Made by a program: the position numbers and the translations under genes. The notes beneath the pieces were generated by a model. The model had not been told where the DNA came from. It saw nothing but the letters and a program-made list of their open reading frames with translations, and did not search any database. A stretch of 64,000 nucleotides of DNA from Pseudomonas sp. M30-35 (lineage in GTDB: Bacteria > Pseudomonadota > Gammaproteobacteria > Pseudomonadales > Pseudomonadaceae): the NCBI RefSeq assembly GCF_002163625.1, contig NZ_CP020892.1, positions 496,001 to 560,000 on the forward strand, read 5' to 3'. This document shows positions 11,772 through 58,367 of this stretch, one piece after another (position 1 is the stretch's first letter; the number at the start of each line of letters is the position of its first letter).

Positions 11772-13196
11772 TTATGAACCGTCGGCCAGCTCGCTACCGG
11801 GCTGCCAGCCACCGCCCAAGGCTTTGTACAGGTTTACTTCGCTACTGAGTTGGGCGAGACGGTCGCTGATCAAGTCCTGACGCACCTGAAACAGCAGGCG
11901 CTGGGCATCGAGGAAGATCAAATAGCTGTCAACTCCGCCACGATAGCGCTGTTGCGCCAAGTCGAAGTATTGCTGGGTGCTATTGAGTAATTCCTGTTGC
12001 GCTGCAAGCTGCTCTTTGTAGGTCAGGCGTGCGGTCAAACCGTCGGACACTTCCTGAAAGGCCAGTTGGATGGCTTTTTCGTATTGCGCGATCTGGCTGT
12101 TTTTCTCAATCTCAGCCACATCCAGTGAGGCATTCAGGCGCCCGGCGTTGAAAATCGGCAGATTGATTTCTGGCTGAAACAGCCAGGTGCCGGTGCCGCC
12201 ACTGAACAAGTCTGACAACGACGAGCTCATGGTGCCTGCGTTGGCGGTGAGGCTGATGCTGGGAAAGAACGCTGCGCGCGCCGCACCAATATTGGCGTTA
12301 GCGGCTTTGAGCATGTGTTCAGCTTGGAGAATATCAGGGCGGCGTTGCAGCAACTGAGAGGGCAGACCTGCTGGTAATTCAGTCAGCAGATTGTCGTTTA
12401 AATCCGGGCTGGCGGGCAGATCTTGCGGCAGAGCACCACCGAGCAATAGCTCCAATGCGTTTTGGTCCTGGGCCACTTGCCGGCGATATTGAGCCAGCAC
12501 CACGTTGGCACTATCCAGCGAGGTTTTCGCTTGGCTCAAAACAATCGCCGAAACAGCTCCGGCTTCCAGACTGCGCTTGGTCAGGTCATAGCTGTCTTGG
12601 TAGGTCTTGCCCGTTTGCTCTGTGATTTGCAGCAGTTGCCGGTCGGCCTGCAAGGTAAACCAGGCATTGGCGACGCTGGCGATCAGGCTGATGCGCACAC
12701 TTTGTTGCGCCTCAATCGTGGCGAAATATTGCTCAAGAGCTGCCTGATTCAAACTGCGCAGGCGGCCGAAGAAATCCAGCTCCCAAGCACTGACGCCTAA
12801 AGTGGCGCTGTATTGGCTGTTAGTGCTCGAATCACTGCTCTGGTTGACCCCTTCGGGTATGCGCTGACGTGTACCCGTGCCATTGGCATTAACCTCAGGA
12901 AATAACTCGGCCCGCTGGATGCGGTATTGCGCCTGATACGCCTCTACATTCAAGGCCGCAACGCGCAGGTCGCGGTTGTTGTTAAGTGATTGTTCGATCA
13001 GCTTGATCAGCGCCGGATCCTTGAAAAAGCTGCGCCACTCCTGCAACTGAGTTGCTTCGGCCGTGCCTTGCGTCGGATAAGCGTCGGCACTTGGGTAAAC
13101 CGTATCAACGGGTGACTGTGGCTGGCTGTACTCAGGGTTCATCGAGCAGCCACTGAGCAGGGCAAGGGTGATAATGCTCAGGCTAAATTTATTCAT
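11772..13196 (-). CDS. Outer-membrane channel lipoprotein of RND efflux (OprM/NodT family)
   Basis: A 474-residue TolC-superfamily outer-membrane factor. A lipoprotein signal ([17 protein letters not shown], lipidation at the Cys of LSGC) begins it. Two related halves follow, typical of the trimeric beta-barrel and alpha-tunnel, including [45 protein letters not shown] and the second-repeat equivalent near the C-terminus. It forms the exit duct for the pump encoded just upstream. Its start codon overlaps the stop of the pump gene by 4 bases, so the two are translationally coupled. It most resembles OprM/TtgC-type channels. Confidence 0.92.
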
Positions 13197-16100
13197 GGCT
13201 GCACCTCATCCTGCGCAGTCTTTATCCGCTGTCTTGGTTTAAACCAAGAGCTGACCAGGACAAAGAATAACGGTACCCAGAATATTGCCAGCACGGTTGC
13301 GCTAAGCATGCCGCCGATAACGCCAGTGCCGATTGCGTGTTGGCTACCCGCACCCGCACCGCTGGAAATTGCCAGTGGTACCACGCCGAGAATAAACGCC
13401 AGCGAGGTCATGATGATAGGTCGCAAGCGCATGCGGCAGGCCTCAAGCGTGGCCTCGACAAGGCCTTTGCCATTGTCGTTAAGCTCTTTGGCGAACTCGA
13501 TGATCAGAATGGCGTTTTTCGCCACCAAACCAATGGTTGTGAGCAAGCCGACCTGGAAGAACACATCGTTGGACAGCCCGCGCATACTGGTCGCCAGCAA
13601 TGCACCGACTATCCCCAGAGGCACCACGAGCAGGACTGCAAACGGAATGGTCCAGCTCTCATAAAGCGCCGCCAGACACAGGAACACGAAGATCATCGAC
13701 AAGGCATACAGCGCGGGTGCTTGTGAACCAGACAAGCGTTCCTCATAAGATATGCCTGTCCAGGAATAGCCCACGCCGAGAGGCAGTTTTGCGGCCATCT
13801 CTTCCATCGCTTGCATGGCTTCGCCGGTGCTGTAGCCCTCGGCGGGAGCACCGAGAACCTCCATGGCTGAAACACCGTTATAACGCTGCAGCTTCGGTGA
13901 GCCGGATACCCATTTACCGCCCGCAAAGGCGCTGAAGGGCACCATTTTGCCTTCACTGTTGCGCACGTACCATTTGTTCAAATCTTCGGGGGCCATGCGT
14001 GCTGAGGCTTCACCTTGCAGGTAAACTTTTTTCACCCGGCCTTTATCGATGAAATCGTTGACGTAGCTGGAGCCCCAGGCAATCGACAGTGTGTTGTTGA
14101 TGTCGCTGAGACTCAATCCCAGCGCTCGCGCTCGCTCGTCGTCGATTTCCAGTTGGTATTGCGGCTCATCTTTCAGGCCGTTAGCCCGCACGCCTGTGAG
14201 CACCGGGTTCTCGCGCGCCATCCTCAGCAACTGATCCCGCGCTTCAGTCATGACCTCATGGCCGACGCCAGCACGGTCCTGCAAGAACATGTCAAAACCG
14301 CTGGAGTTACCTAATTCACGAATGGAGGGTGGGGCAAAGGCAAACACCATGGCGTCGGTGATTGAGCGAAAGCGCTCTTGCGCACGACTCACCAGACTGA
14401 AGACACTGTTGACCTCGCCGGGGCGCTCCTCCCAAGGTTTCAGGGTCACAAACGCCATGCCAGAGCTTTGCCCGCGACCTGCAAAGTTGAAGCCGCTGAT
14501 ACTGAATACCGACTCGACAATATCGCCTTCCTCATTGAGCAGGTAATCACGTACTTGATCCACGACCTCCTTGGTCCGCGCCATGCTGGAGCCAGACGGT
14601 GTTTGCACCTGCGCATAGAACGAGCCTTGGTCTTCCTCGGGTAGGAATGCGCTGGGAATACGGCTGAACATCCAGGCAATGATGCACAGAATCAAGGCGT
14701 AAAGAATGAGGTAGGGCAGCTTGTGTTTGAGGATACTGACGACGCTGCGCTCATAGCCATTAACACCGCGTTCGAAGGTTTTGTTGAACCAGCCGAAGAA
14801 GCCGCGCTTGCTGTGGACCTCGCCGTCTTTGATCGGTTTGAGCAGGGTTGCGCACAGCGCCGGAGTGAAGATTAGTGCAACCAGTACCGAGAGGGTCATC
14901 GCGGCAACGATGGTGATCGAGAACTGGCGATAGATGACCCCGGTCGAGCCGCCGAAGAACGCCATCGGTAGAAACACAGCAGACAGCACCAGCGCAATCC
15001 CGACCAGCGCTCCCTGAATCTGGCCCATGGATTTACGTGTGGCTTCGAGCGGGGAGAGCTTTTCCTCGGCCATCACCCGTTCTACGTTCTCCACCACGAC
15101 AATGGCGTCATCCACCAGCAACCCAATCGCCAGCACCATACCGAACATGGTCAGGGTATTAATGCTGAAGCCGAATGCATCGAGCACTGCAAACGTGCCA
15201 AGCAACACAACCGGCACGGCCAAGGTAGGGATCAGCGTGGCACGGAAGTTCTGCAAAAACAGATACATCACACAGAACACCAGAACGATGGCTTCCATCA
15301 GGGTGAAAATCACCTCTTTGATCGAACCGGCAATCACTGGGGTTGTGTCGTTGGGGTAAACGATTTCAAGGCCTTTCGGGAAGAATGGCTTGAGCTCTTC
15401 GAGGGTGCTGCGAATGGCTGCCGAGGTTTCTAGCGCGTTGGCGTCCGTCGCCAGCCTGATCGCCATGCCCGCTGCGGGATTGCCATTATATTCTGCCGAG
15501 GTGCTGTAGTTTTCCCCTCCCAATTCAACTTTTGCGATATCACCCAGGCGAACCTGTGAGCCATCAGAGTTGACCTTGATCAGGATTTTTTCGAATTGCT
15601 CCGGGGTTTGCAGGCGGGTTTTGCCAATAATTGTCGCATTCAGTTGCTGGCCATTCTGAGCGGGCAACTGACCGAACTGGCCGGAGGAAATCTGCACGTT
15701 TTGCGCTTGAATGGCGGTTTTAACATCCACTGGCGTCAACTGGTAATTGTTCAGCTTTTCCGGGCTGAGCCAGATACGCATGGCGTACTGCGCGCCAAAA
15801 ATCTGGAAGTCGCCTACGCCTTTGGCCCGCAGTAACGGATCTTGAATATTGGAGACGATGTAATCGGCGAGATCGTCGCGGTCCATGCTGCCATCTGTGG
15901 ACACCACGCCGACAATCATCAGGAAGTTACGCACTGCTTTGGTGACACGAATACCTTGCTGCTGCACCTCTTGGGGCAATAGCGGAGTCGCCAGTTGCAG
16001 TTTGTTCTGCACTTGCACCTGGGCGGTATCGGCATCGGTACCCTGATCGAAAGTCACCGTAATGGTCATGGTGCCATCTGAGTTACTTTCGGAAGAGATA

Positions 16101-16330
16101 TAGCGCAGGTTGTCCAGGCCGTTGAGCTGCTGCTCGATTACCTGAGCGACAGTGTCTTGTACGGTTTGCGCAGAGGCGCCGGGGTAAGTGACTCTGATGC
16201 CAATGGCCGGTGCAGCAATGCTGGGATACTGATTGATCGGTAAGTTGAGGATGGCCAGGCTGCCAACCAACATGATCATCAGCGCAATTACCCAGGCAAA
16301 GATCGGCCGGTCGATAAAAAAACGAGACAT
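13193..16330 (-). CDS. RND multidrug efflux pump, HAE1 family (MexB/TtgB/AcrB-like)
   Basis: A 1045-residue inner-membrane proton-driven transporter of the AcrB class. The N-terminus [19 protein letters not shown] and [23 protein letters not shown] are diagnostic. The helix-4 motif [16 protein letters not shown] carries the adjacent aspartates of the proton relay, and the helix-10 region has [17 protein letters not shown] with the conserved lysine. Length is as expected (about 1045-1050). Two large periplasmic loops would take drugs from the periplasm. It is the middle gene of an adaptor-pump-channel operon, 12 bases after the adaptor gene. Confidence 0.95.
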
Positions 16331-16342
16331 GCGTGCCGCTCC

Positions 16343-17686
16343 TTATTGAGGTTCAGCGGCATTTGCCGGAATGGTCGCGGGGTCTACTTCTGTCTCAATC
16401 TCGGCTTCCGGCTCAGGGTCACTCATGCCTTTGATGTTCTGCGCAGCGACGGGGCTGACTGTGTCGCCAGGCAGAACGTATTGCAGGCCTTCTGTGATCA
16501 AGCGATCGCCATCCTTCAGCCCAGCAGTCACGAGCCAGTTACTGCCGGACGTGCTGTGGGTCGTAATTGAGCGCAGCACCACTTTGTTATCAGCATCCAC
16601 CAACAGGGCAACAGGCTCGCCTTTGTGGTCGCGGGTAATACCTTGCTGGGGTGCGAGAATTGCCTGTTTACGCACACCGCTGATCAACTTGGTGTGCACG
16701 AACATTCCGGGCAGCAGCATATGGTCGGGGTTGGGGAAAACTGCGCGCAGGGTTACCGAGCCGGTTGTTTCGTCAACTGACACCTCGGAAAACTGCAACG
16801 TACCCGTGTGCTGGTATTGGCTGCCGTCTGGAAGAATTAACCGGGCTTCAGCCTGGTTTTTACCTGCTTTGTCGAGTTCTCCTACGGCGATAGCTGTGCG
16901 CAGTGCCAGTTGGTCTTTAACTGACTGGGTGACGTCGACGTAGATCGGATCATATTGTTTGATCGTTGCAAGGGCAGTGCTTTGACCATTGGTCACCAAC
17001 GCGCCTTCGGTGATCGTGGAACGTCCGATGCGGCCACTGATGGGGGCTGTGATCTTGCTATAGCGCAGGTTGATGCGGGCTTGGTCTGCGGCTGCTTCGG
17101 CTTCGAGGCTGGCGGCGCGGGCGGCTTCGTAGTCTTGACGACTAACTGCCTGGTTGGCGACCAGTAACTCATAGCGCTTGGCTTTGGCTCTAGCTGAAGC
17201 GAGCGTCGCCTCGGCGCTCTTTAACGTGGCTTGATAAGTTGCTGGGTCTATCTGATAGAGCACTTGCCCAGCTTTTACATCATGGCCTTCTTCAAACAGG
17301 CGCTTAAGGATGATGCCGTCAACTTGCGGGCGAACCTCTGCGACACGTAATGCCGTGGTGCGCCCTGGCAACTCGACCGTTTGCTCGAAGCGCCTGGCTT
17401 TGAGGGTGACAATGCCAACTTGTTGTGCCTGTTTTTCGGCCGGTGCGTTGGGCTTATCACAGCCAGTTAACACGACACTCAATGCGACCATCGAGATAAT
17501 TAGTAAGGGGCTGAGGGATCTCTGAAAAACTACTACGCTAGATATTACTGCGTTAAAAAACTGCTCAAAATGCTCATTTACAGCACGTAAAGTCGAGCGC
17601 GACCCCGGTCGCTTTTTCGCACTCTTTTGCCTTGTACTATCTTCGCTCGCTACATTTTTCAGCGGATCCCCGAGGTTGCCTTGCAT
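16343..17686 (-). CDS. RND efflux periplasmic adaptor (MexA/AcrA-like) with element-altered N-terminus
   Basis: A 447-residue membrane-fusion protein linking pump and outer-membrane channel. Family motifs include VELPGRTTALRVAEVRPQVDGII, the lipoyl half GQVLYQIDPATYQA, an alpha-hairpin (about 150-210) and ITAPISGRIGRSTITEGALV. The lipoprotein box is LSVVLTGC, which should mark the mature N-terminus. The ATG at 17686 has GGAGAG 6 bases upstream. After five codons the frame enters a repeat element (17515-17671) that encodes about 52 foreign residues before SLSPLLIISMVALSVVLTGC resumes. The signal peptide therefore has an abnormally long, charged n-region. An acidic, proline-rich tail (DPEPEAEIETEVDPATIP) ends the protein. 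Confidence 0.9.
   Translation of the reverse strand: MQGNLGDPLKNVASEDSTRQKSAKKRPGSRSTLRAVNEHFEQFFNAVISSVVVFQRSLSPLLIISMVALSVVLTGCDKPNAPAEKQAQQVGIVTLKARRFEQTVELPGRTTALRVAEVRPQVDGIILKRLFEEGHDVKAGQVLYQIDPATYQATLKSAEATLASARAKAKRYELLVANQAVSRQDYEAARAASLEAEAAADQARINLRYSKITAPISGRIGRSTITEGALVTNGQSTALATIKQYDPIYVDVTQSVKDQLALRTAIAVGELDKAGKNQAEARLILPDGSQYQHTGTLQFSEVSVDETTGSVTLRAVFPNPDHMLLPGMFVHTKLISGVRKQAILAPQQGITRDHKGEPVALLVDADNKVVLRSITTHSTSGSNWLVTAGLKDGDRLITEGLQYVLPGDTVSPVAAQNIKGMSDPEPEAEIETEVDPATIPANAAEPQ
17515..17671. mobile_element. MITE-like element inside the adaptor gene
   Basis: About 157 bases bounded by imperfect inverted ends gggatctctgaaaaa and tttttcagcggatccc. The internal sequence is shared almost base for base with 58198-58367, including a block around gctcaaaatgctcatttacagcacgtaaagtcg. 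This copy lacks about 15 bases (the gggcagcccttgctg segment) relative to the other. No transposase is encoded. Read on the minus strand it is fully open and is translated as part of the adaptor. No clean target-site duplication was seen. Confidence 0.75.
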
Positions 17687-17764
17687 GCCCTGCTCTCCGT
17701 TACGACGTACTGGCAACCAGCGCTGCGGTGTCTGGCAGGTAAGTTCAGTACAAAATGCGATATA

Positions 17765-17808
17765 GTTGATAGGGTCAACATTCTCGCGATAGGGTTGACT
17801 GAGTCAAC
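17765..17808. promoter_or_regulatory. Twin palindromic operators for the MarR regulator
   Basis: Two 15-base palindromes of one family, gttgatagggtcaac (17765-17779) and gttgactgagtcaac (17794-17808, perfect 6-3-6), lie 29 bases centre to centre. They sit in the divergent region between the efflux operon and the marR gene. The GTTGA-N5-TCAAC form and size fit MarR-family dimer sites, so repression of both directions is likely (inference). Confidence 0.7.
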
Positions 17809-17845
17809 ATTGTTTACAGAATCCTTACTTCCGAGTGTTTCCACC

Positions 17846-18265
17846 GTGACCAACCAAGCGTTATCTCGCGCCCTGCGTCGGCTGATTATGGGTATGAAAC
17901 ACAATGTTTTACGCGATCTGCGTGAAGCGAATCTTGCACTTAACCCGCCAGATGTCCTGTTGCTTGAGCAATTGGCGGAGCAGCCGGGTCTCAATCCGCT
18001 CGCGCTGACAAAACTCAATGGTTGTGACAAGGCCTTGATTACTCGGCGGGTGCGCAGCCTTGAGGCGCGCGGCTGGATAAAACGTGAGCCAGACCCGCAA
18101 GATCAACGCAGTGTGCAGTTGAGCGTGACTGCGCAAGGCGCGCAGGTTAAAGATCAGGCTTTGGATATCTTTTATGCGGCTGAAACTGCAGCATTCGCAC
18201 CGTTGAGTGATGCTGAGCGCGAAGCGTTATTGGCGCTGTTAACCAAGTGCTTACCTGCTGAGTAA
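17846..18265 (+). CDS. MarR-family transcriptional regulator, divergent to efflux operon
   Basis: A 139-residue winged-helix regulator. The recognition region reads LNPLALTKLNGCDKALITRRVRSLEARGWIKREPDPQDQRSVQLSVTAQG, with the DxRS wing motif of MarR proteins as DQRSVQLS. The C-terminal helix (LSDAEREALLALLTKCLPAE) is a dimerisation element. The frame is open back to 17627, but that stretch covers the repeat element and the operators. GTG 17846 gives a normal MarR length, though its ribosome-binding site is weak. It probably represses the divergent RND operon in response to an aromatic or toxic ligand. Confidence 0.85.
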   Translation: MTNQALSRALRRLIMGMKHNVLRDLREANLALNPPDVLLLEQLAEQPGLNPLALTKLNGCDKALITRRVRSLEARGWIKREPDPQDQRSVQLSVTAQGAQVKDQALDIFYAAETAAFAPLSDAEREALLALLTKCLPAE

Positions 18266-58197: not shown

Positions 58198-58367
58198 AGG
58201 ATCCTCTGAAAAACTACTGCGCTAGATATTACTGGGGCAGCCCTTGCTGCGTTAAAAAGCTGCTCAAAATGCTCATTTACAGCACGTAAAGTCGTGCGCG
58301 ACCCCGGTCGTTTTTCGCATTTTTTGCCTTGTACTATCGTCGCTCGCTACCTTTTTCAGGTGCTCCT
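58198..58367. mobile_element. MITE-like element, second copy
   Basis: About 170 bases with ends aggatcctctgaaaaa and tttttcaggtgctcct. It is nearly identical over most of its length to the copy inside the efflux adaptor gene (17515-17671), in the same orientation, and carries about 15 extra bases (gggcagcccttgctg) absent there. It is intergenic here, between the lipoprotein and chemoreceptor genes, and has no transposase. Confidence 0.75.

Follow-up and report, generated by a model that had tools for sequence, protein, structure and literature searches.

A MITE, possibly IS5-like, in frame in the signal-peptide region of an RND efflux adaptor gene of Pseudomonas sp. M30-35, and cleavable leaders as a possible harbour for such insertions

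The palindromic elements of Rickettsia are repeats of ~150 bp that occur in frame in protein-coding genes, with the reading frame open through the element (review PMC10969869). The QMITEs of Coxiella, a group of miniature inverted-repeat transposable elements (MITEs), occasionally overlap genes in frame, including a C-terminal extension of EnhC (PMC5896051). Here a window of 64 000 nucleotides of Pseudomonas sp. M30-35 (NZ_CP020892.1, positions 496,001 to 560,000) was analysed, in which a MITE lies in frame in the signal-peptide region of a gene for a resistance-nodulation-division (RND) efflux adaptor. The family of this MITE shares in-frame copies with an open frame with the Rickettsia palindromic elements as reviewed, but its fusions are rare, and those found are concentrated in leader peptides. 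In-frame overlaps are also the likeness to the QMITEs, and the word ‘signal’ has 0 occurrences in the main text of PMC5896051. The adaptor leader can be compared with that of the BKC-1 beta-lactamase, described as a naturally lengthened signal peptide with which export is retained (PMC8262980). Dispersed MITE-like repeats are likewise described in Pseudomonas fluorescens, as R0 (89 bp) and R2 (110 bp), but these differ in size and are described as intergenic families (PMC2718517). Fusions of MITEs in frame are not new as such; the open-access literature searched did not describe them as concentrated in leaders, nor did it mention a MITE within a bacterial signal peptide, which is a weak absence.

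The interrupted gene encodes a MexA-type RND periplasmic adaptor, in an operon with an RND permease and an outer-membrane channel. It matched TIGR01730 with 257 bits (cut-off 94.9), and its best NCBIfam model was RND_adapt_MexA with 530 bits; as this score is under the cut-off of 750 of that MexA-specific model, the adaptor was not filed as MexA itself. On the minus strand, a GGAG motif, an ATG and the codons for MQGNL are followed by the element, which is 155 bp long; this confirms the claim of an earlier note on this DNA that a ribosome-binding site, ATG and five codons are followed by a complete copy of a dispersed repeat with the frame open to the lipobox. Element and target-site duplication together add 159 nt, or 53 codons, and the frame continues uninterrupted from the ATG to the stop (447 amino acids), with LTGC as residues 73–76 and the cysteine as residue 76. 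The frame is intact to the lipobox because 159 is a multiple of three, one frame of the element is open and the element landed in that phase. Both ends of the copy are partly decayed and its duplication is imperfect (3 of 4 positions); this divergence suggests that the insertion is probably not brand new. The adaptor is a predicted lipoprotein, with LTGC or a similar motif also present in relatives. The hydropathy of its core is 2.85, compared with 2.35 in both database protein P0003 and the Pseudomonas segetis adaptor, and 9 K/R and 5 D/E precede this core in the leader.

Comparison with orthologues free of the element, which the earlier note had proposed, supported an insertion. In the sister species P. 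segetis (L061) the adaptor gene likewise begins at an ATG preceded by GGAGAGCAGGGC; its product, of 394 amino acids (53 fewer), has no insert, and the signal peptide passes directly from MQG to the core. Database proteins P0002 and P0003 (396 amino acids) also lack the insert. The best match began only at query residue 55–63 in 23 of 24 same-genus genomes, while the remaining one (G014) gave only a weak match, from residue 84. No orthologue was found with the same extension but no repeat. As the ribosome-binding site and ATG are shared with P. segetis, which lacks the insert, the native ATG of the adaptor lies upstream of the MITE, and the suggestion that the element separates the operators from the original ATG was wrong. 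The mature adaptor is constrained relative to that of P. segetis, with a non-synonymous divergence (dN) of 0.054 and a synonymous divergence (dS) of 0.80 over 371 codons.

The repeat is dispersed, as had been noted: 62 copies, a few of them fragments, were listed in the M30-35 genome. Earlier counts in this genome gave 43 rows (40 of 85 candidates scored) and 67 rows (80 scored, with some rows being pieces of a single copy). Related DNA was present in 243 of 398 Pseudomonas genomes, M30-35 included (at most 2 candidates scored per genome). The family has the ends GGAACCTCTGAAAAA...TTTTTCAGAGGTTCC, which form terminal inverted repeats (GGAACCTCTGAAAAA and its complement), and its 4-bp duplications are mostly YTAR-like; TTAA, TTAG or CTAA flank many copies on both sides, although some differ, such as CAAG at a tadE-like gene. 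The copies are thus short, dispersed and numerous, with inverted repeats and target-site duplications and without transposase coding capacity, as befits MITEs. Element lengths, taken as matched stretches less 12 nt of flank, were mostly ~140, 155 or 170 bp, with a maximum of ~213. Members of the IS5 family generate a 4-bp YTAR target duplication, and by this likeness the adaptor insert may be an IS5-like MITE. A parental transposase was sought in the M30-35 genome by the DDE_Tnp_1 profile (PF01609) alone, with no match.

One frame is open in most copies in this genome (58 of 67 rows without an internal stop). A few of the larger length variants are off by one, but most differ by multiples of three (15, 30, 57), and one-base insertions or deletions are present in several copies. 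Multiples of three prevail here despite the lack of any sign of codon-level selection. The MITE also often stands exactly at stop codons in the M30-35 genome (for example at L024, L172, L177 and L190): the stop of an open reading frame of at least 100 amino acids lay no more than 4 nt from the entering border in 16 of 43 edge-resolved copies, compared with 0.55 expected from shifted borders. YTAR targets contain TAA or TAG. In a generic test for interrupted genes, both flanks carried a frame of 40 codons or more in 24 of the 62 copies; 12 of those 24 were inspected singly, and two in-frame gene fusions were found among the 62 listed copies. Frequent in-frame insertion, by which a family would resemble the Rickettsia palindromic elements, was not seen.

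In-frame copies of the family were found in seven genes, and in five of these the element lies in the n-region of a cleavable leader, namely those of the adaptor, a TadE pseudopilin, a cytochrome P460, MlaA (from two sources) and a MetA-type porin. Assignment of the P460, MlaA and porin leaders was by eye, with hydropathy as a second guide for the first two. The cases were gathered by several routes. Within the M30-35 genome, 11 element rows with a stop-free frame of at least 150 codons were inspected and two, the adaptor and TadE, were in-frame fusions. Eight further Pseudomonas genomes and P. segetis gave 124 rows in one scan and 153 matches in another, and among the matches listed 45 stop-free long frames (18 and 27, respectively) and 2 more with one stop were inspected; these scans yielded one clear fusion, the porin, and one ambiguous fusion, an ABC permease. 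Two queries of a protein database with the element peptide alone left 2 of 7 candidates and 1 of 24 at E ≤ 0.01, namely P0122 (MlaA), P0123 (cytochrome P460) and P0121 (a gamma-glutamyltranspeptidase).

The TadE fusion has no start codon between the element and the motif QKG-AAAIEF, in which cleavage presumably follows the G; in P. segetis the TadE leader is equally long (15 residues) and lacks the element. P0122 and P0123, known from protein sequence alone, carry the element in an apparent signal-peptide n-region. For P0123, an element-free relative in the M30-35 genome (L241, 76% identical) places the insertion immediately before the core. The element directly follows the start codon in P0122 and stands right after the GTG in the MlaA gene of genome G192 (L256), where it is internally shortened with the frame kept. 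It was absent from 19 other MlaA loci listed (of 29 others fetched), and the two copies may share one insertion. The porin gene (L307) has a good Shine–Dalgarno sequence and ATG ahead of the element and no start from the element to the core. The two remaining fusions are an ABC permease (L236), an ambiguous case with the element at the N-terminus and a GTG downstream, and P0121, in which the element lies mid-protein, apparently slightly before what we take to be the position of the autoprocessing threonine. Most other long open frames through copies belonged to genes that start downstream of the element (such as L025, L104, L221, L230, L304 and L305) or looked spurious, and for L316 and L319 the listed open frame was not reproduced on inspection.

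These observations are probably best explained by insertion of the MITE into a working mexA-type adaptor gene whose product is still made and exported, with leader n-regions serving as a tolerated harbour. The IS5-like element would have entered after codon 5. Translation would start at the native ATG and yield a preprotein with a net positive n-region of ~58 residues, ahead of a hydrophobic core that resembles those of its relatives. The preprotein would still be exported by Sec and lipidated, and signal peptidase II would cut before Cys76. Because the element-encoded peptide would be discarded with the signal peptide, the mature adaptor would be unaltered. The other leader fusions may be handled likewise, by prepilin peptidase for TadE and by signal peptidase for P460, MlaA and the porin. 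Insertion would not be aimed at leaders: in-frame insertions elsewhere would harm proteins and be lost, while those in leaders would survive because the foreign peptide is trimmed away by the host's own leader peptidase. Leader n-regions make up little of the proteome, so five of seven fusions in leaders is far above the share expected from random placement, although no formal probability is attached to this proportion because the sample came by several routes. The element is suited to such fusions, as its common lengths, with the duplication included, are divisible by three and it usually has one open frame.

A wider generalization, to which we give slightly less than an even chance, is that in-frame mobile elements find a safe harbour in cleavable leaders throughout the genome, and that a Pseudomonas-wide MITE has made use of it in five genes or more. 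Signal peptidases I and II and prepilin peptidase would then trim the element peptide in a protein-level counterpart of intron splicing. If true, this would make it simple to state which parts of a gene can accept mobile DNA without harm to the product and would account for some unusually long signal peptides. It would also be a caution that gene callers may misplace starts at such sites, here at codon 66. The fusions would serve as natural experiments on the n-region length and charge that Sec export, lipidation and prepilin processing can tolerate.

Several observations weigh against export from the native ATG with removal of the element peptide. The adaptor n-region far exceeds the usual length, and the element adds a second hydrophobic stretch (FFNAVISSVVVF) that could interfere; in P0123 the element-derived stretch has a hydropathy of 2.01 compared with 2.26 for the core. 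The gene caller's product in this genome (P0001, 382 amino acids) begins at codon 66. The permease is more constrained than the adaptor relative to P. segetis (dN 0.017, dS 0.63, 995 codons), and pairwise dN/dS does not isolate the period after the insertion. The seven fused genes are a small sample collected by several routes, and two of them lie outside cleavable leaders. A plasmid search gave no relative of the porin leader without the element; the 5 records listed, of 50, aligned only from residue 88–91 onwards.

It is conceivable, though unlikely, that the insertion practically abolished the adaptor or greatly reduced its level: a block to export or expression by the long n-region and an RNA hairpin would leave a young pseudogene with an open frame. 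The element is predicted to form a stable hairpin within the coding region, with a fold energy of −76.9 kcal/mol (245 nt) compared with −58.0 (214 nt) in P. segetis, and the insertion was seen solely in this genome among those compared. However, the Shine–Dalgarno region is predicted to be mostly unpaired (0.14, compared with 0.67 in P. segetis), the 447-codon frame is open, the divergence of the duplication copies and ends suggests that the insertion is probably not brand new, and pairwise comparison shows constraint on the mature part. The leader fusions in other genes, MlaA in two sources among them, also argue against loss of function. Less probable again is translation from downstream of the element, at the ATG of codon 66 or a non-standard start, which would make the element a 5′ leader and would agree with the gene caller's choice. 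A shifted start had been raised in the earlier note. Downstream of the native ATG, the frame up to the lipobox cysteine contains just three codons of the ATG, GTG or TTG type, ATG 66, TTG 69 and GTG 72, and all lie within the core; a Shine–Dalgarno sequence was looked for before codon 66 and none was seen. A start there would leave 10 residues ahead of the lipobox cysteine and no charged n-region, while the native ribosome-binding site and ATG are conserved in P. segetis. TadE and the porin, moreover, have no start codon between element and leader core.

The stop-free frame of most copies and the preponderance of length variants in multiples of three would also fit a coding mobile element whose peptide is under selection and gains from fusion to host proteins, as a true analogue of the Rickettsia palindromic elements. 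This was judged very improbable. Among 39 copies of the M30-35 genome, substitutions were even across codon positions (110/123/99) and the synonymous fraction was 0.19 compared with 0.26 expected, so that protein-level selection on the element peptide was rejected by both tests. Substitutions between subfamilies were distributed 9/12/12 by codon position, and the one-base insertions and deletions, as well as the count of just 2 fusions among 62 copies, point the same way. Export from the native ATG with removal of the element peptide remains the preferred explanation for the adaptor.

Table 1. Features of the adaptor locus and of two further leader fusions (window coordinates unless a locus is named)
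Feature	Position	Strand	Remarks
RND efflux adaptor gene, MexA-like	16343..17686	−	447 codons including element; stop at 16343
MITE copy, 155 bp	17515..17669	−	Element read in its sense frame in adaptor gene, codons 6–58
Target-site duplication copy CTGA	17511..17514	no strand	3/4 match to CCGA copy
Target-site duplication copy CCGA	17670..17673	no strand	Other flank of MITE
Native adaptor ATG	17684..17686	−	Same ATG and upstream GGAGAGCAGGGC in P. segetis L061
Ribosome-binding region GGAGAGCAGGGC	17687..17698	−	GGAG at 17695–17698
Original signal-peptide core and lipobox LTGC	17459..17512	−	LTGC at 17459–17470; compared with P. segetis and P0002/P0003
Internal ATG, codon 66	17489..17491	−	Start in database gene call P0001
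RND permease gene, same operon	13193..16330	−	TIGR00915, 1796 bits (cut-off 940)
Outer-membrane channel lipoprotein gene, OprM-like	11772..13196	−	By inspection; overlaps permease stop
MarR-family regulator, divergent	17846..18265	+	GTG start inferred; PF01047 9.5e-15 on longer frame 17627–18265
GTTGA/TCAAC repeats upstream of adaptor, probable operator	17765..17808	no strand	Similar repeats in P. segetis, by eye
TadE-like pseudopilin, M30-35 genome	L107 1068–1778	−	PF07811 9.6e-11; exact duplication CAAG; element in prepilin leader
MetA-type porin	L307 1020–2093	−	PF13557; element in signal-peptide n-region

The operon and its surroundings are given in Table 1. The repeats between the adaptor gene and the divergent regulator presumably resemble MexR sites. 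A second copy of the MITE was found in the window at ~58199–58366, ~four codons past the end of a 268-codon open frame on the plus strand.
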